This document shows, in pieces, positions 32,217-55,569 of a DNA stretch of 64,000 nt. Position numbers and translations under genes: made by a program. Source of the DNA: Vibrio sinaloensis (lineage in GTDB: Bacteria; Pseudomonadota; Gammaproteobacteria; Enterobacterales; Vibrionaceae). The notes under the pieces are model-generated. The model was not told the DNA's origin, ran no database searches, and worked only from the letters and a program-made list of their open reading frames with translations. Position 1 is the stretch's first letter; each line of letters opens with the position of its first letter. Location: positions 682,001 through 746,000 of the forward strand of contig NZ_CP096199.1 of assembly GCF_023195835.1 (NCBI RefSeq), given 5' to 3'.

Positions 32217-32220
32217 AATA

Positions 32221-32305
32221 TGGTGGAGGGGGACGGATTCGAACCATCGAAGGCAGTGCCAGCAGATTTACAGTCTGATCCCTTTGGCCACTCGGGAACC
32301 CCTCC
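32221..32305 (-). tRNA. tRNA-Tyr(GTA), copy 4 in transcription order
   Basis: 85-base class II tRNA with a long variable arm; anticodon GTA in loop CTGTAAATC, T-loop TTCGAAT, encoded CCA 3' end. Last gene of the four-gene array. Confidence 0.97.
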
Positions 32306-32317
32306 GGGTGTTTTATC

Positions 32318-32349
32318 CTTGGCAGTGTTTTCCCAACACACTGTTCAAG
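32318..32349. repeat. tRNA-Tyr spacer stem-loop
   Basis: Stem CTTG-CAGTG/CACTG-CAAG closing a loop of about eleven bases; the same element is in the other two spacers and, with base-pair changes, in the leader before the first tRNA (about 32857-32888). Adjacent CTATCC-CAA-GGATAG forms a second small hairpin. Confidence 0.7.
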
Positions 32350-32392
32350 TGTTTCTCACAAGCTATCCCAAGGATAGTCACAAGAAAGAATA

Positions 32393-32477
32393 TGGTGGAG
32401 GGGGACGGATTCGAACCATCGAAGGCAGTGCCAGCAGATTTACAGTCTGATCCCTTTGGCCACTCGGGAACCCCTCC
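32393..32477 (-). tRNA. tRNA-Tyr(GTA), copy 3
   Basis: Identical in sequence to the other three copies; 85 bases with encoded CCA. The spacing to copy 4 is 172 bases start to start. Confidence 0.97.
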
Positions 32478-32565
32478 AGGGTATTTTATCCTTGGCAGTG
32501 TTTTCCCAACACACTGTTCAAGCGTTTCCCACAAACTATCCCAAAGATAGTCACAAGAAAGAATA

Positions 32566-32650
32566 TGGTGGAGGGGGACGGATTCGAACCATCGAAGGCA
32601 GTGCCAGCAGATTTACAGTCTGATCCCTTTGGCCACTCGGGAACCCCTCC
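32566..32650 (-). tRNA. tRNA-Tyr(GTA), copy 2
   Basis: Identical 85-base gene; 173 bases from its neighbours. The preceding spacer is nearly identical to the others. Confidence 0.97.
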
Positions 32651-32738
32651 AGGGTATTTTATCCTTGGCAGTGTTTTCCCAACACACTGTTCAAGCGTTT
32701 CTCACAAGCTATCCCAAGGATAGTCACAAGAAAGAATA

Positions 32739-32823
32739 TGGTGGAGGGGGACGGATTCGAACCATCGAAGGCAGTGCCAGCAGATTTACAGTCTGATCCC
32801 TTTGGCCACTCGGGAACCCCTCC
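32739..32823 (-). tRNA. tRNA-Tyr(GTA), copy 1
   Basis: First gene of the array in the direction of transcription; same sequence, encoded CCA. Confidence 0.97.
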
Positions 32824-32889
32824 AGGGTGTTTTCTTGCTCTCAATCGGAACAAGCTTGAGACAATGTTTTCCCAACGCATTGCTCAAGT

Positions 32890-33113: not shown

Positions 33114-34172
33114 ATGAAAAGTAAAATTATTCTGAGCCTTCTGTCGGTGTCTATGTTCGTCGCAGTGCCGAATGCGCAAGCCAACCGACCCGGTGCGTCA
33201 GCGGTGACGGTGGTGACAGAGCAAGTACAGACACACAAAGTGTCACAGTCGTTGGTATTGGTTGGTAAGTTAGAGGCCGAACAATCGGTGATGATCTCGT
33301 CGGAAGTAACGGGGAAAATCGACGTGATTGCGGTGAAAGCCAATCAGCAAGTGAGCAAAGACCAGATCTTAGTCAAGCTTGATGATGACAAAGCGCTCGC
33401 CGCAGTGGCAGAGGCCAGGGCCTATCTAAGAGATCAGCAGCGCGTATTGCAAGAGTACGAGCGTTTGGTGAAAAGCAATGCGATCACCCAAACGGCGATC
33501 AACGCGCAAAAAGCTGCAGTGGATATCGCTCAAGCTCGACTTGATGCCGCCAACGCCAATCTCAATGATTTACATATTAGCGCACCGTTTGCCGGCACAG
33601 TGGGTTTTATCGATTTTAGCCGCGGTAAGTTGGTTACCTCCGGTAGTGAGTTGTTGTCCTTAGATAACTTGTCGGTGATGCAGCTCGATTTGCAAGTGCC
33701 AGAGCGTTATCTAGGGCAGTTAGAAAAAGGCATGACGGTCACCGCGACGACCGCTGCTTGGCCTGGTAAAGCGTTTACTGGTGAGCTGGTGGCTATCGAT
33801 TCGCGCATCAACCAGCAGACGTTAAACCTGAGAGTGCGCATCCATTTTTCTAATTCTGATTTAGCTCTTAAACCCGGCATGCTGGTGTCTGCTGATATGG
33901 ACTTCCCACCGATGGAAGCGCCAATCATTCCCGTACAAGCGCTCGAGTATTCAGGGACTAAGCGCTACGTCTATGTAGTCGGCGACAACAACAAAGCCAC
34001 CCGCACTGAAGTTAAGCTCGGTGCCCGAGTCGAAAACCAAGTGGTCATTGAAGAAGGCCTATCGATTGGCGATAAGATCGTTGTGCAAGGTATTGTCAAT
34101 ATGCGTGATGGCGTTGCCGTGACTGAGCTAACCCAAACCGCTAAATCTGAGCCGACGCAAGGGGGCAACTAA
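33114..34172 (+). CDS. vexG: RND efflux periplasmic adaptor subunit (VexG-like)
   Basis: Membrane-fusion protein linking an RND pump to an outer-membrane channel. It has about 352 residues from 33114, with a signal peptide (MKSKIILSLLSVSMFVAVPNAQA); an ATG six codons upstream (33096) is the alternative start. The lipoyl-like halves flank a helical hairpin (EARAYLRDQQRVLQEYERLV). The beta-barrel segment DLHISAPFAGTVGFIDFSRG is typical. Its stop overlaps the pump start by one base. Placing it after treC matches the V. cholerae vexGH locus as I recall it. No outer-membrane gene is adjacent, so TolC is the presumed partner. Confidence 0.9.
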   Translation: MKSKIILSLLSVSMFVAVPNAQANRPGASAVTVVTEQVQTHKVSQSLVLVGKLEAEQSVMISSEVTGKIDVIAVKANQQVSKDQILVKLDDDKALAAVAEARAYLRDQQRVLQEYERLVKSNAITQTAINAQKAAVDIAQARLDAANANLNDLHISAPFAGTVGFIDFSRGKLVTSGSELLSLDNLSVMQLDLQVPERYLGQLEKGMTVTATTAAWPGKAFTGELVAIDSRINQQTLNLRVRIHFSNSDLALKPGMLVSADMDFPPMEAPIIPVQALEYSGTKRYVYVVGDNNKATRTEVKLGARVENQVVIEEGLSIGDKIVVQGIVNMRDGVAVTELTQTAKSEPTQGGN

Positions 34173-37100
34173 TGCTGCTGTCAGATGTTTCGGTTAAACG
34201 CCCTGTGGCGGCGGTGGTATTGAGTTTACTGCTATGTGTGTTTGGTATTGTCTCGTTTAGTAAACTCGCGGTGCGAGAGATGCCGGATATTGAAAGCCCG
34301 GTGGTGTCGATCAGCACGCGCTACGAAGGGGCGTCTGCGACCATTATCGAAAGCCAGATCACCTCGGTCCTCGAAGATCAGTTATCGGGGATCAGTGGTA
34401 TCGATGAGATAGAGTCGACCACGCGCAACAGTATGTCGCGCATTACCATCACTTTTGAGCTCGGTTATGACCTCAATACGGGGGTAAGCGACGTTCGTGA
34501 TGCGGTGGCGCGTGCTCAACGAGCGTTGCCAGATGAAGCCGACGATCCTGTGGTCTTTAAAAATAACGGTTCTGGGCAAGCCTCACTGTACATCAACTTG
34601 AGCTCATCGGAGATGGACCGCACTCAACTGACGGATTACGTCGAAAGAGTGTTACTGGACCGTTTTAGCTTGATTTCCGGTGTGAGTTCGGTCGATGTCT
34701 CCGGTGGGCTGTACAAGGTGATGTACGTCAAGCTTAAGCCTGACCAAATGGCGGGCCGTGGCGTTACAACGACTGACATTACCACAGCGCTGCGCAATGA
34801 GAATATTGAGAGTCCTGGCGGTGAAGTGCGCAACGACCAAATCGTGATGTCGGTCCGAACTGCACGTAGCTATAACCAAGCCGAAGACTTTGAATATCTT
34901 GTGGTCAAGCGCGCGAGTGACAACACACCTATCTATCTACGAGATGTGGCAGACGTCTTTATCGGTGCCGAGAACGAGAACTCAACCTTTAAGAGTGATG
35001 GTGTGGTCAACGTCAGTATGGGGATCGTGCCGCAATCCGATGCCAACCCACTCGAAGTGGCTGAGCGTGTGCATAAGCAGGTTGACGACATTCAGCAGTT
35101 TTTGCCGGAAGGGACACGTTTAGCCATCGATTATGACTCAACCGTGTTTATCGACCGTTCTATTTCCGAAGTGTATAACACCCTGTTTATCACCGGTGGC
35201 CTAGTGATTTTGGTGCTGTACATCTTCATTGGTCAAGCAAGAGCGACCTTGATCCCAGCGGTAACGGTACCAGTGTCGCTGATCTCTTCGTTTATCGCGG
35301 CTTATTATTTTGGTTTTTCGATTAACTTGATCACCCTGATGGCGCTGATTCTATCGATCGGATTGGTGGTCGATGATGCGATTGTGGTCGTTGAGAATAT
35401 TTTCCATCATATCGAAAGAGGCGAAAAACCGCTGCTTGCCGCGTACAAAGGCGCACGCGAGGTAGGGTTTGCGGTAGTGGCGACCACCTTAGTATTGGTG
35501 ATGGTGTTTTTACCTATCTCCTTTATGGATGGCATGGTCGGCCTACTATTTACCGAGTTTTCGGTATTGCTTGCTATGGCTGTTATCTTTTCGTCGCTTA
35601 TCGCTCTCACTCTAACCCCAGTACTAGGCAGTAAGCTGCTCAAGGCAAACGTCAAACCTAGCCGCTTCAACTTGTTTATTGAACGTATGTTTGGCCGCTT
35701 AGAGTCAGGGTATCGCCGCGCATTGACGATAGCGCTGCGCGGTAAGTGGCTGGCGCCAATCATTATCTTGGCGTGTGTAGCAGGCAGTTGGGGATTGATG
35801 CAGCAAGTGCCATCCCAGTTAACTCCGTCAGAAGACCGAGGCGTTATTTTTGCCTTTGCACGTGGAGCGGATGCGACCAGTTACAATCGCATGGCTGCGA
35901 ATATGGATGAGATCGAGCAGCGCTTACTGCCACTTCTTGGTCAAGGATTCTTGAAGTCGTTCAGTATCCAATCGCCCGCGTTTGGCGGCAATGCCGGAGA
36001 CCAAACTGGCTTCGTGATCATGATCTTAGAAGACTGGAGTGATCGAGATGTCACCGCTCAACAAGCGTTGGGGCAGGTGAGGAAAGCGTTGTCGGGCATC
36101 GCGGATGTGCGCATCTTTCCATTCATGCCTGGCTTTAGAGGGGGTTCTAGTGAGCCGGTTCAGTTTGTGCTTGGTGGTTCTGATTACTCTGAGCTTAAAT
36201 CTTGGGCAGAAAAGCTTGAGCAGTTGGCCGAAGAGTCGCCTTATATGGAAGGGGCGGATATCAACTACTCAGAGAAAACACCAGAGCTTGTGGTCACGAT
36301 TGACAAGCAGCGCGCTGCAGAGCTTGGCATCAGCGTCAAGGACATCTCCGATACCTTAGAAATTATGCTTGGTGGTAAGAGTGAAACTACTTATGTCGAG
36401 CGTGGTGAGGAGTATGATGTTTACTTGCGTGGTGATGAGAACAGCTTTAACAATGCGTCGGACTTGAGCCAAATCTACATGAGAACGGCGTCGGGAGAGT
36501 TGGTGACGCTCGATGCTGTGACCAAGATTGAGGAGGTCGCGTCTTCGATTCGTTTGTCTCACTATAACAAGCAAAAGTCTGTCACGATTACCGCAAATCT
36601 GTCGGATGGCTACACCTTGGGTGAGGCGCTCGATTATTTGGATCAGCAAGCGATAGAGCTGCTTCCTGGCGATATCTCAGTCAGCTACTCTGGGGAATCA
36701 AAAGATTACAAAGAGAACCAGTCGAGTGTATTGGTGGTGTTTGCACTGGCACTGTTAGTGGCATACCTAGTACTCGCGGCGCAGTTTGAAAGCTTTATCA
36801 ACCCCTTAGTGGTGATGTTTACTGTACCAATGGGCGTATTTGGGGGCTTTCTGGGCCTGGTTGTTATGCAGCAAGGGCTCAATATCTACAGCCAAATCGG
36901 CATGATTATGTTGATTGGTATGGTCACCAAGAACGGCATCTTGATTGTCGAGTTTGCCAACCAGTTACGTGACCGTGGCATTGAGTTTGAGAAAGCGATC
37001 ATTGATGCATCGGCGCGACGCTTGAGGCCGATTATGATGACGGCATTTACGACGCTAGCGGGCGCAATCCCACTGATTTTGTCCACCGGAGCTGGATATG

Positions 37101-37294
37101 AGAGCCGTGTTTCGGTGGGTACGGTCATCTTCTTTGGTATGGGCTTTGCGACCATAGTGACCCTGTTCGTGATTCCTGCGATGTACCGCTTAATCTCGGG
37201 ACATACTCAGTCACCGGGCCATGTTGCGGCAGAGCTAGACAAAGAACTTAGCCATGATGTCAAAGCTCGAAGTTCACATGGTGAACTGAACTAG
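34172..37294 (+). CDS. vexH: RND efflux transporter permease (VexH-like)
   Basis: A 1040-residue proton-driven inner-membrane pump with the two-fold RND layout: single TM near residue 10, large periplasmic loop, cluster of TMs from about 335-480, and a second half repeating this. The proton-relay region LSIGLVVDDAIVVVENIFHH carries the paired aspartates. The family is hydrophobe/amphiphile efflux (HAE1/HAE3-like, with GIVSFSKLAVREMPDIESP typical of MexF/VexH-like pumps). Start ATG overlaps the adaptor stop (TAATG). Confidence 0.92.
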   Translation: MLLSDVSVKRPVAAVVLSLLLCVFGIVSFSKLAVREMPDIESPVVSISTRYEGASATIIESQITSVLEDQLSGISGIDEIESTTRNSMSRITITFELGYDLNTGVSDVRDAVARAQRALPDEADDPVVFKNNGSGQASLYINLSSSEMDRTQLTDYVERVLLDRFSLISGVSSVDVSGGLYKVMYVKLKPDQMAGRGVTTTDITTALRNENIESPGGEVRNDQIVMSVRTARSYNQAEDFEYLVVKRASDNTPIYLRDVADVFIGAENENSTFKSDGVVNVSMGIVPQSDANPLEVAERVHKQVDDIQQFLPEGTRLAIDYDSTVFIDRSISEVYNTLFITGGLVILVLYIFIGQARATLIPAVTVPVSLISSFIAAYYFGFSINLITLMALILSIGLVVDDAIVVVENIFHHIERGEKPLLAAYKGAREVGFAVVATTLVLVMVFLPISFMDGMVGLLFTEFSVLLAMAVIFSSLIALTLTPVLGSKLLKANVKPSRFNLFIERMFGRLESGYRRALTIALRGKWLAPIIILACVAGSWGLMQQVPSQLTPSEDRGVIFAFARGADATSYNRMAANMDEIEQRLLPLLGQGFLKSFSIQSPAFGGNAGDQTGFVIMILEDWSDRDVTAQQALGQVRKALSGIADVRIFPFMPGFRGGSSEPVQFVLGGSDYSELKSWAEKLEQLAEESPYMEGADINYSEKTPELVVTIDKQRAAELGISVKDISDTLEIMLGGKSETTYVERGEEYDVYLRGDENSFNNASDLSQIYMRTASGELVTLDAVTKIEEVASSIRLSHYNKQKSVTITANLSDGYTLGEALDYLDQQAIELLPGDISVSYSGESKDYKENQSSVLVVFALALLVAYLVLAAQFESFINPLVVMFTVPMGVFGGFLGLVVMQQGLNIYSQIGMIMLIGMVTKNGILIVEFANQLRDRGIEFEKAIIDASARRLRPIMMTAFTTLAGAIPLILSTGAGYESRVSVGTVIFFGMGFATIVTLFVIPAMYRLISGHTQSPGHVAAELDKELSHDVKARSSHGELN

Positions 37295-37422
37295 AGAACG
37301 GACTTCGTCCTGCGAGAATTTAGAACGGGCTGCGCCCTTCGAGAGGGTGGGGGGATGAGCGAGTCGAAAAGTGCAGGCAGTGCTGGCTTATTTTTTAGTC
37401 TAATTTCCTGATTTTAAAACAG

Positions 37423-37449
37423 AAGGGTTGACACTGTGTGTCAACCCTT
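37423..37449. terminator. hairpin of element A, possible terminator
   Basis: Stem AAGGGTTGACA/TGTCAACCCTT, loop CTGTG. On the minus strand it is followed by CTGTTTTAAAA, a moderate U-tract, so it may end yitT transcripts after the heptamer array. Confidence 0.6.
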
Positions 37450-37460
37450 CCAAGATTTTC

Positions 37461-37635
37461 TCGCTTCTCGCTTCTCGCTTCTCGCTTCTCGCTTCTCGCT
37501 TCTCGCTTCTCGCTTCTCGCTTCTCGCTTCTCGCTTCTCGCTTCTCGCTTCTCGCTTCTCGCTTCTCGCTTCTCGCTTCTCGCTTCTCGCTTCTCGCTTC
37601 TCGCTTCTCGCTTCTCGCTTCTCGCTTCTCGCTTC
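37461..37635. repeat. heptanucleotide tandem array (TCGCTTC)25
   Basis: Twenty-five perfect head-to-tail copies, 175 bases, ending three bases from the yitT stop codon (37639-37641). All plus-strand frames through it read as a repeated LASRFSL peptide, which is an artefact of a stop-free 7-mer. Confidence 0.98.
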
Positions 37636-37638
37636 TCT

Positions 37639-38238
37639 CTATCCGTAATTAACCGAGTAGCGTGTTGGCTTATGATTCATCGCCAAAACTAAGTTCAATG
37701 CCACTGCACCGACGATCGACAGCAATATGGTTTGTGGTGAAACAAAAAATAGCGAGGTCACCAGGATCCCGATGTCGATCGTTAACTGCGATTTGCCTAC
37801 CGAAATGCCAAATTTGTCTTGAATGAACAGGCACAGCACATTAAAGCCGCCCAAGCTTGAGCGATGGCGAAACAGAATGAGCATGCCCAATCCCATCAAT
37901 AGTCCACCAGCAACGGCGCAGTATACGGGGTTAATACTATCTAGGCTGATCACAAGGTAGAGATGATCAGTAAAAATAGACACGAGCGCTCCGGAAATGG
38001 CACTGTTCACGGCAAAGCGCGAGCCAAAGCGTCGCCACGCCAGCAGGTAGAACGGGCTATTGGCAATAAAATAGAGCATGCCAAGTGATAAAGAACTGAA
38101 CTGACTGACCAGCAGCGCTAAGCCGGCAGTTCCACCGGTGAGCAATGAAGCCGACTGGAGGAAGAAAAATCCTTGGGCGACAAGGAAAGTGCCGGTCAAT
38201 ATTGCGACCCAGTCTTCTTTACGTGAGTGTTTTTCCAT
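37639..38238 (-). CDS. YitT family membrane protein
   Basis: About 199 residues from ATG 38238 (MEKHSRKEDWVAILTG); an ATG twelve codons further up is possible. Five to six hydrophobic segments (FLVAQGFFFLQSASLLTGGTAGLALLVSQF, YCAVAGGLLMGLGMLIL) and the NVLCLFIQDKFGISVGKSQ motif indicate the YitT/DUF161 group without the C-terminal DUF2179 domain. Function unknown. Its stop codon abuts the heptamer array, so array length changes would alter only the 3' untranslated RNA. Confidence 0.85.
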   Translation of the reverse strand: MEKHSRKEDWVAILTGTFLVAQGFFFLQSASLLTGGTAGLALLVSQFSSLSLGMLYFIANSPFYLLAWRRFGSRFAVNSAISGALVSIFTDHLYLVISLDSINPVYCAVAGGLLMGLGMLILFRHRSSLGGFNVLCLFIQDKFGISVGKSQLTIDIGILVTSLFFVSPQTILLSIVGAVALNLVLAMNHKPTRYSVNYG

Positions 38239-38465
38239 CAATTTTAAATTTATACAGCAATTAATGGCGTGCATACTATTTAAAAAATGCGGATTTCGGT
38301 AGCTTGAGGGTGAAAATTAAGGTAAACCTATGTAATTATCGTTTTACGGAGTGTAAAGGAGAGAATTGACACTTTTCGCAGTGTGATCTGAGAAAAATGG
38401 TCAACATGACATTCCTTGTAAAGCATTATGAAAAAACTGCATGAGAAAAAGTGTATTTTTCTCTT

Positions 38466-42377: not shown

Positions 42378-42656
42378 TTAGAGAACCATGCGCACGATGT
42401 CGATTTCACCCAGCTCTTTGTATAGGGTTTCCACCTGCTCAATCGATGTGGCTGTGATGTTGATAGAGACTGAATGATAGTTGCCTTTGGCACTTGGCTT
42501 TACGGTTGGGCTGTAGTCACCTGGAGCATGACGTTGAATCACTTCCAAAACCTTCTCTGGTAGCTCTGGCTTAGCGTAGCCCATCACCTTGTAGGTAAAT
42601 GAACAAGGGAACTCTAGCAGGTCTTTCAGTTTTGCATCTGAGTTAATGTTCAGCAT
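42378..42656 (-). CDS. ybeD: YbeD/DUF493 family protein
   Basis: A small 92-residue ACT-like fold protein. The start at 42656 ([16 protein letters not shown]) is chosen because GGAGTAAC precedes it and because it aligns with E. coli YbeD (87 residues). The block [21 protein letters not shown] and the C terminus [11 protein letters not shown] are nearly invariant in the family. Function is not established; it always lies between dacA and lipB in this group, hinting at a link with lipoylation or the cell wall. Confidence 0.93.
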
Positions 42657-42749
42657 GTTGTTACTCCAAGTTGGAAAATTGGTCTGAATAGCGCGGAATA
42701 GTACTGACAATTGAGGTCGAACTCAAGTAAACGCGCGGGGGTTAAAAAC

Positions 42750-42778
42750 GAAAAGAGCCGCGCTAGGCGGCTCTTTTC
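42750..42778. terminator. dacA terminator
   Basis: A 12-bp stem GAAAAGAGCCGC/GCGGCTCTTTTC with a five-base loop. Confidence 0.85.
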
Positions 42779-53758: not shown

Positions 53759-53900
53759 GGACGCTGAGAGAGGGGCTCCACCCTGCGAGATGCGAGTACA
53801 CTGCGCTTCGAATTCGGAATGCGCCCTATGAGAGGCGCTTGTGGTGAGCGAGTCAAAAGTTGCAGGTAGTGTGGCTACGAATTATCTGAACTTAAAAGGA

Positions 53901-53927
53901 AAGGGTTGACGCAATGTGCCAACCCTT
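53901..53927. terminator. hairpin of element B, possible terminator
   Basis: Stem AAGGGTTG/CAACCCTT with an 11-base loop, same arms as the element A hairpin; it could end ybeL or lnt transcripts. Confidence 0.5.
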
Positions 53928-53934
53928 CCAAACT

Positions 53935-54032
53935 GTCACTCGTCACTCGTCACTCGTCACTCGTCACTCGTCACTCGTCACTCGTCACTCGTCACTCGTC
54001 ACTCGTCACTCGTCACTCGTCACTCGTCACTC
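53935..54032. repeat. heptanucleotide tandem array (GTCACTC)14
   Basis: Fourteen perfect head-to-tail copies, 98 bases, ending three bases before the lnt stop codon (54036-54038). Confidence 0.98.
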
Positions 54033-54035
54033 GCT

Positions 54036-55544
54036 TTAGTCTCGCAATCTCCAACCTATCACCAGACTCAACATAACCCATAGATACAGCGGCCAGCTGC
54101 CCCACAAGTGGAATGGCGTTTGCCCCTCAGTCGAGGTAACTTCGGCGCGCAGTACCCCAGTTTCAAATTGTGGAATGTCAGCGATAACACGGCCCATGTG
54201 GTCGGTGATAGCCGTGACGCCGTTATTGGTGGAGCGGATAACCGGTTTGCCAAATTCTAGCGCGCGCATGCGTGCAATCTCCATATGTTGGAGAGGGCCG
54301 ATAGAGCGGCCGAACCAAGCATCGTTCGACAGAGTAAGAATAAAGTCTGTCTCGTCGTCGATGTTTTGCCGCACTTGTTCGTTGAAGATAATCTCATAGC
54401 AAAGTGCTGGTGCCATCTGTTTTCCATTCGCTTCAATATTTGGCTGAATGAACTCACCGCGACTGAACGAGGACATAGGTAAGTTAAAGAACGGGGCCAG
54501 TGGGCGTAGAATGCTTTCAAATGGGACAAACTCGCCGAACGGCAGCAGGTGATGCTTGTGGTAGCGCTCATTCATATCATAGCGATACCCCGGTTGTGCT
54601 TTGTTGCCTAAGGTTAAGATGCTGTTATAGAACTTTTTATCTTCACTTTGATTAACAATCCCTGTGATGACTGCACTGTCATTCATCGCAGCGGCAGAGT
54701 CGAGATTGCTTAAAAATGAGGAGATCTCGAACTCAAACGCGGGAATTGCGGCTTCTGGCCAGATGATGATGTCAGCATCCCAGTTCTCTCGGGTCAGGTC
54801 GGTGTATTTCATTATGGTCGGCCAGCGTTGGCTGGGTTTCCATTTCAATGCTTGCGGTATATTCCCTTGAATCAGGGCAACCTTGGTGACCTGGTTGGTA
54901 TCAGGTGTGACCCATTGAGCGGAGGTCAAGCCAAAACCGGTGGCAATAATCACCGCAGGAACAATCAGCGTAGACCAACGTTTATGCAGCAGTGCATAAC
55001 CTAAACCCGCTGCACTGATTATCACCAACAGAGTAATCAGTTCGACACCGCCTACTGGCGCGAAATGACCAAGGGGGCTGTCAATCTGACTGTAGCCGAG
55101 CCATAACCAAGGAAAACCGGTCATTACCCAGCCGCGCAGCCAGTCGAAGATTAGCCACAAGGCCGGGGCGCCAAGTAGCCAGCGGGTACGAGTTGAAGTC
55201 GCGAACCAGCGATTGAGGCTCCAGCAGAACAACGCACTGTACAGCGCTAAGTATCCGACCAGCAGTGCCATAAGAAACAAACTGGCGGGTTTGGGCATGC
55301 CGCCAAAGTTGTCTATGCTGACATGTACCCAACTGATCCCCGTCGCAAATTGTCCTAGGCCCCATGCGTAGCCGATGGCAAACGCATATTTAGGCGTCTG
55401 CTTGTGGATAAGCAACAGCAGTAGCAGGGGGGAAATAATAGCGAGCGGCCATAAAGAGAATGGTGCAAAGGCTAGGGTGGTTGAGGCGCCAACAAAAACG
55501 GCCGCGAGCGGCCGTTTTAGGCGATGAAACAGTGTACTTATCAT
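54036..55544 (-). CDS. lnt: apolipoprotein N-acyltransferase
   Basis: Adds the third acyl chain to lipoproteins at the periplasmic face of the inner membrane. It has 502 residues from 55544, where GGAGAA precedes the ATG; an ATG four codons earlier lacks one. N-terminal membrane segments are followed by a nitrilase domain with catalytic Glu in WPEAAIPAF, a conserved Lys, and Cys in [11 protein letters not shown]. It follows corC by 13-25 bases. The heptamer array abuts its stop codon. Confidence 0.96.
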
Positions 55545-55569
55545 CGAATTCTCCATTAGGAGATGAGCG

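Follow-up and report, generated by a model that had tools for sequence, protein, structure and literature searches.

Heptamer arrays beside putative terminator hairpins are oriented by replication in a repeat family of Vibrio sinaloensis

The window analysed here, a 64,000-nucleotide stretch of the V. sinaloensis genome, spans positions 682001-746000 of chromosome 1 (C1; 2,971,812 bases), which together with chromosome 2 (C2; 1,195,397 bases) makes up an assembly of two contigs and 4,167,209 bases. It contains two elements, A and B, each lying between two convergent genes and occupying the space from one stop codon to the other (gene contexts throughout are from simple open reading frame calling). 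The gene on the head side of A (34172-37294, plus strand, stop codon at 37292-37294) is codirectional with the replication fork and encodes 1040 amino acids; judged by its size and part of its C-terminal end read by eye, it resembles an RND-type transporter. On the array side of A lies a minus-strand gene of 211 amino acids (37639-38274), head-on to the fork, whose stop codon adjoins the array. The array-side gene of B (54036-55556), likewise minus-strand and head-on, encodes 506 amino acids, presumably an apolipoprotein N-acyltransferase-like protein, and its locus was compared across Vibrio. Elsewhere in the window, at 32217-32833, a 173-base tandem unit in 3.6 copies carries four tRNA genes with an anticodon that, by eye, reads as Tyr.

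A sequence-only reading of the window had described a composite element present twice. Both copies are found where it placed them and share the order that it proposed: a head of CGAGA-tailed mini-hairpins, a body with a box, a hairpin and a heptamer array. In A, the plus-strand head (about 37296-37345) consists of two mini-hairpin units ending in CGAGA, GAACGGACTTCGTCCTGCGAGA and GAACGGGCTGCGCCCTTCGAGAG. The body that follows, of type 1 (37346-37421, plus strand), contains the conserved box TGAGCGAGTCGAAAAGTGCAGGCAGTG (37356-37382, plus strand; box pattern search and BLAST), and its A-rich end gives the U-rich tract of the minus-strand terminator. Next come the hairpin GAAGGGTTGACAC/GTGTCAACCCTTC (37422-37450) and the plus-strand array (37458-37637), which TRF reports as (TTCTCGC) x25.7 with 100% matches, that is, 25 CTCGCTT units that end one base short of the minus-strand gene's stop codon. 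Element B, also on the plus strand, begins with decayed mini-hairpin units (53761-53838) and continues with a body (53839-53900) carrying the box TGAGCGAGTCAAAAGTTGCAGGTAGTG at 53845-53871, the hairpin AAGGGTTGACGCAATGTGCCAACCCTT (53901-53927; sequence and comparison of the orthologous locus) and an array (53935-54033) of (GTCACTC) x14.1, again with 100% matches by TRF, whose 14 CTCGTCA units lie beside the minus-strand gene's stop codon. The hairpin arms of both elements are close to AAGGGTTGAC/GTCAACCCTT, and the array unit differs between them, CTCGCTT in A versus CTCGTCA in B, with CTCG kept in both.

From the viewpoint of the minus-strand gene, its stop codon is followed by the array, the hairpin and the U-rich tract, the layout of a 3' UTR that contains an intrinsic terminator. 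With its flanks included, the minus-strand RNA of A has a predicted folding energy of -24.4 kcal/mol (z -3.96) and UGUUUU after the hairpin; other copies of the family end in TTTTCTTTT. By sequence and predicted fold this is the stable hairpin followed by a U-tract of an intrinsic (Rho-independent) terminator, and the hairpin probably works as one. Among 61 hairpins of this type from this and other species there are 27 distinct arm pairs, in which one stem position is G-C in 14, C-G in five, A-T in three, T-A in two and something else in three, and another is A-T in 16, G-C in four and something else in seven. The TTG core is nearly invariant across the 27 pairs, and the stem shows compensatory changes.

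A and B belong to a family. BLAST with A found 39 places at E<=1e-3, all on C1 and including A itself and its own palindrome; the best match besides self has an E-value of 2e-42, and the long copies are dispersed, with 72-81% identity. The box pattern, with up to two mismatches, occurs at 13 places in the genome against four in a reversed control, several of the 13 lying outside the family. The hairpin-and-array pattern TTGAC-loop-GTCAA-linker-CTCGNNNCTCG has 24 genomic places and none in the control, and a four-unit array pattern matches 300 times forward and 248 times in reverse, against 0 and 20. There are at least two body types. We counted 46 arrays of at least four CTCGNNN units, in stretches partly picked from earlier matches, which cover 294 of the 300 forward and all 248 reverse four-unit matches (six forward matches fall outside the stretches catalogued); left out of the 46 are four three-unit matches, of which three are concordant with the orientation described below and one, degenerate and at 2722017, is discordant. 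The arrays hold four to 37 units each (median 13.5), and 43 are perfectly homogeneous. The commonest NNN of an array is CTT in 22, CCA in seven, AAA in five, CTA, CCT, CAT and TTG in two each, and TCT, AAT, TCA and CAA in one each. Among TRF arrays with a period up to 12 and at least three copies, period 7 accounts for 50 of 57 in this genome and 53 of 63 in other Vibrio, in stretches mostly picked for arrays; CTCG is present in 46 of the 50 and 49 of the 53 period-7 units, the stretches being mostly picked by CTCG arrays. In being tandem and near-identical at period 7, the arrays resemble bacterial heptameric SSRs, or minisatellites.

With these BLAST places and arrays, many of them in the same order, the genome-wide search that the sequence-only reading had called for supports its proposal of a non-autonomous repeat family of this genome. 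The likeness of A and B is not a matter of chance or of a mere common terminator motif, because BLAST similarity to A reaches 81% over 177 bases, from the head to the first bases of the array. That reading knew of no named element with such a structure; literature searches likewise gave none, and A has no Rfam match at E<=1. The first 178 bases of A have no match in either the plasmid or the phage collection, and we rejected a plasmid or phage origin on that ground.

The dnaA gene, identified by eye from its translation, lies at base 19 of C1, and GC skew, sampled in 20 stretches of 20 kb, is positive up to the stretch at 1.48 Mb and negative from 1.54 Mb; together these place the origin near 0 and the terminus near 1.5 Mb. 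No dif site was found at up to five mismatches in the sequence searched for it, so the placement of the terminus rests on GC skew. All 27 arrays of the right replichore carry CTCG on the plus strand and all 19 of the left on the minus strand (46 of 46; two-sided binomial 2.8e-14 if independent). Head clusters are just as polar, with 17 plus on the right and 11 minus on the left (28 of 28; 7.5e-9 if independent), including three that have no array of at least four units nearby. These P-values overstate independence, because copies within a genome share descent. A stop-anchored array pattern run over the whole genome matched 61 times forward and 78 times in reverse, all on C1 and in the concordant replichore. 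The family is oriented by replication, a refinement beyond the earlier reading, and with 46 of 46 arrays tracking the replichore it shares this trait with polar chromosome signals such as KOPS, Chi and Ter. No array was located on C2, where 400 kb sampled held no period-7 or other array of at least three copies; none was located between 1.06 and 1.55 Mb of C1 either. Gene dosage or accessory content may lie behind these gaps.

In the sense of the fork, the genes flanking the 46 arrays are oriented (+,-) in 32 cases, (-,-) in nine, (+,+) in four and (-,+) in one, and all 32 arrays between convergent genes are in the fork orientation. Transcription gives a convergent pair no preferred direction, so that at these sites the orientation of the array must come from replication. 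An origin linked to transcription would have head-on collisions between replication and transcription create the arrays at the 3' ends of lagging-strand genes. The array-side gene is indeed head-on to the fork in 41 of the 46 arrays, and in 35 its stop codon lies within eight bases of the array. However, four arrays of this genome keep the same order between two neighbours that are both codirectional with the fork by simple open reading frame calling, as does one such locus common to four other genomes, and we consider the collision account highly improbable.

To other Vibrio genomes we applied the same comparison, with fork direction taken from local GC skew only; ten were sampled and nine had arrays by this test, both genomes and stretches having been chosen for holding the pattern. 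Of 47 arrays, 38 agree with local GC skew and nine carry CTCG on the opposite strand, so that a rule by which the CTCG strand is always the lagging-strand template fails for these nine. We replaced it by a rule in which the hairpin comes before the array along the fork. Among the nine discordant arrays a strong hairpin stands only before the array in seven and only after it in none. The seven represent three loci. The terminators at two of these do not resemble the TTGAC type, and that at the third is somewhat like it; next to the downstream gene of this third locus, V. sinaloensis has an array as well, on the opposite strand, and the hairpin again comes first. With a hairpin cut-off of -10 kcal/mol and all TRF period-7 arrays taken, CTCG not being required, hairpins in this genome (n=50) lie before the array only in 28 cases, after it only in three, on both sides in six and on neither in 13; the figures for the other Vibrio (n=53) are 30, one, five and 17. 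When orthologous places are merged, 64 loci remain, with a hairpin on the fork-proximal side only in 36, on the fork-distal side only in four, on both in six and on neither in 18 (p 1.9e-7, a value that likewise overstates independence). The exceptions in this genome are at 1044656, 2443094 and 141035. The array at 141035 of C1 and another at about 2886 of locus L300, one per genome, consist of AAGCACT units and have a hairpin on the fork-distal side only. Array length is weakly correlated with hairpin strength in this genome (rho -0.33, p 0.026) and uncorrelated in the others (rho 0.03, p 0.82). In other Vibrio species the hairpin and array occur without this head and body, and together they form a separable module.

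That the arrays all lie the same way, and usually just past a terminator hairpin, suggests that DNA copying itself builds them. Our preferred reading, in which we place about even confidence, is that the family is a non-autonomous terminator cassette, dispersed over C1 and mostly at tail-to-tail gene ends, with an array that lengthens as lagging-strand synthesis is held up at the hairpin. Along the lagging-strand template, which in the right replichore is the plus strand, the order is head, body, terminator hairpin, array. Okazaki synthesis, running opposite to the fork, copies the array first and meets the hairpin next; the polymerase would stall at the folded hairpin while the nascent 3' end is still within the array, and that end could slip back by one 7-base unit and be extended again, leaving the array longer. 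We infer that stalling and slippage of this kind cause the arrays. Under such a model arrays should grow fork-distal to a hairpin regardless of its sequence and of which strand bears CTCG, and this is the prevailing pattern; against it count the 18 of 64 loci without a strong hairpin, the four with one on the wrong side only, and the weak or absent correlation between array length and hairpin strength. Slippage accounts for the polar arrays but not for the polar heads and bodies; nor does it account for CTCG as the core of the unit or for why CTCG favours the lagging-strand template. Heads and bodies could become polar either by being inserted with polarity or by being replaced through recombination between arrays whose polarity is already set, and the cassette presumably spreads by moving or recombining as a unit, with a bias towards one orientation relative to the fork.

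Comparison with relatives bears on how it might do so. At the B locus, genomes G005, G018, G011, G017, G006 and G009 have the same hairpin type without this head, and 0, 1, 3, 4, 5 and 11 CTCGAAT units, respectively, beside the stop codon. G002 has a similar hairpin and no array there, and several other relatives have unrelated sequence. The sister species G071 lacks site A, having instead 55 bases with an ordinary terminator, and its B locus (contig C38, about 42440-42760) holds a CTAGAGA array. A CTAG core thus occurs besides CTCG, and the core may be CTMG rather than CTCG. At 612666, V. sinaloensis has 22 CTT units and a type 1 body, G071 a type 2 body and a single CTCG; at 618623 the units are CCA and CTT, respectively; at 661885 there are 21 units and, in G071, a single CTCG. 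Other elements are present only in G071 and absent from this genome. The unit switches between the sister species at one site as CTCGCCA/CTCGCTT and CTCGTCT/CTCGCAA, and copy number differs between species at orthologous loci. Gain, loss and replacement thus all seem to affect the cassettes, and the unit differs between whole arrays. At several genes the array starts like TAGNNNC and goes on as GAGNNNC, as though the stop codon had served as its template. In four other loci (L150, L153, L155 and L163) another Vibrio intergenic repeat, GTCAT..CCTAGAGCGACGAAGGAG..GAGATCTCT, takes the head's place upstream of the hairpin.

Presence and absence at orthologous sites give movement of the element only indirect support. 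One way of moving that would by itself yield polarity is for a trans-acting transposase to insert the cassette, in single-stranded form, into the template of the lagging strand, the arrays being a by-product. Insertion of this kind is known for IS200/IS605 and has been proposed for REP/RAYT elements. REP and BIME repeats, small dispersed non-coding hairpins at gene ends that are associated with RAYTs, belong with an enzyme superfamily of strand-biased insertion, and the Vibrio family resembles them in its dispersed gene-end hairpins. A REP is defined as a short palindrome after a GTAG-type tetranucleotide, and in neither A nor B does a GTAG stand at the foot of the hairpin. Heads that are polar even without arrays speak for insertion, as do the dispersed long copies at 72-81% identity and the presence or absence of elements between sister species in both directions. 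However, a Pfam search of this genome found neither a Y1 transposase (PF01797; 0 matches here, nor any in the array-bearing G129, with 5 of 14 control genomes positive) nor a reverse transcriptase, the first being also a difference from REP/BIME. At site A, and at some further sites, the sisters differ over the entire intergenic stretch, and by eye no clean empty site with a target-site duplication, as expected of a MITE- or ERIC-type element, is evident in these comparisons, though an element near 115150 found only in this genome looks more like an insertion. In addition, arrays beside other terminators keep the same order, and copy number differs locally at a fixed hairpin. We regard such fork-directed insertion as possible, if rather unlikely.

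The hairpin-and-array pattern is present in 17 of 148 genomes of the genus, this one included and richest in copies (control positive in 3 of 148). A scan of the species collection returned 37 stretches, 32 of them from Vibrio or Vibrionales, and the sequences of 35 were inspected (all but L164 and L175). In a sample of 143 genomes of the class, 8 have arrays of five CTCGNNN units, this one included, and a reversed control is positive in 7 of 143; occurrence outside Vibrio is therefore a lead rather than a result. CTCGNNN arrays were seen in other gammaproteobacterial families at L361 (G284), L362 (G283) and L358 (G298), and short ones touching a stop codon at L360 (G272), beside a gene that by eye looks like EF-Tu, and at L173 (a Caldilineaceae MAG). 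Within single arrays of G283 and G284 the three bases after CTCG are not constant, CTCG having been required by the search.

This variation inside arrays, subject to the same search requirement, would fit a selected function, in which CTCG at 7-base spacing binds a protein or acts in the 3' UTR and fork orientation is selected, as for KOPS- or Chi-type signals. So would the constancy of CTCG in period-7 units while the other three bases change, in stretches mostly picked by CTCG arrays, and the lack of any located array on chromosome 2. Against selection stand the gain, loss and replacement of arrays between sister species, copy numbers from four to 37, the differing transcription context, with arrays before as well as after the terminator, and the 131 of 148 genus genomes that lack the hairpin-and-array pattern; we consider it very unlikely. 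Another account is that CTCGNNN units are added fork-distal to terminator hairpins by a dedicated process coupled to the fork, that a factor recognises CTCG, and that the same lagging-strand process spreads the cassette in one orientation around one chromosome. This, too, we think unlikely; were it true, replication-templated repeat elements of a new class would be at hand, possibly beyond Vibrio too.

Literature searches, with most subscription journals lying outside their coverage, found no description of this Vibrio family, and the literal heptamer strings matched only in unrelated fields. The typing repeats of V. parahaemolyticus were set aside, the six motifs shown being hexamers. Mrazek et al. 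2007, as cited in passages of PMC4679880 and PMC4692102, found seven to be the commonest tandem unit in most genomes studied and proposed heptamer slippage on the grounds that seven nucleotides may match the polymerase contact. The Vibrio arrays share tandem 7-mers with the bacterial heptameric SSRs treated in these passages, but they lie next to terminator hairpins and stop codons, follow the direction of the fork and consist of CTCG plus three bases that vary by locus and species. The GGGAATC and GGGGA(C/T)T intergenic arrays of Xanthomonas and Nostoc vary in length and sequence between close relatives, and for the Xanthomonas repeats a leading/lagging strand preference is reported to be absent (excerpts of PMC4692102); both systems are intergenic heptamer arrays, whereas the Vibrio ones are polar in 46 of 46 cases and have units without G runs. 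Numerous intergenic heptamer direct repeats are also found in another gammaproteobacterial group, the Beggiatoaceae, where passages of PMC4679880 describe a fixed heptamer, TAACTGA, which in the main genome forms sets of two to six copies and mostly precedes start codons; the Vibrio arrays lie instead at stop codons beside terminators. Repeated terminator hairpins are known from the uptake-sequence terminators of Neisseria and Pasteurellaceae, closely similar hairpins at many gene ends, for which excerpts of PMC1852404 mention no heptamer array and list Vibrio among the genera rich in intrinsic terminators. For eukaryotes, part of PMC12708500 reviews how hairpins on the lagging-strand template obstruct synthesis.

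Polymerase slippage has been proposed as the reason why heptamers dominate among long bacterial tandem repeats (passages of PMC4679880 and PMC4692102). The 46 fully polar arrays, with their preferred hairpin position, are a natural set that directly tests this proposal, and the pattern suggests that the step involved is the passage of lagging-strand synthesis through a terminator hairpin. If this reading is true, ordinary terminators would shape the sequence on their own fork-distal side, and the tail-to-tail intergenic regions of Vibrio would turn over as replaceable cassettes.
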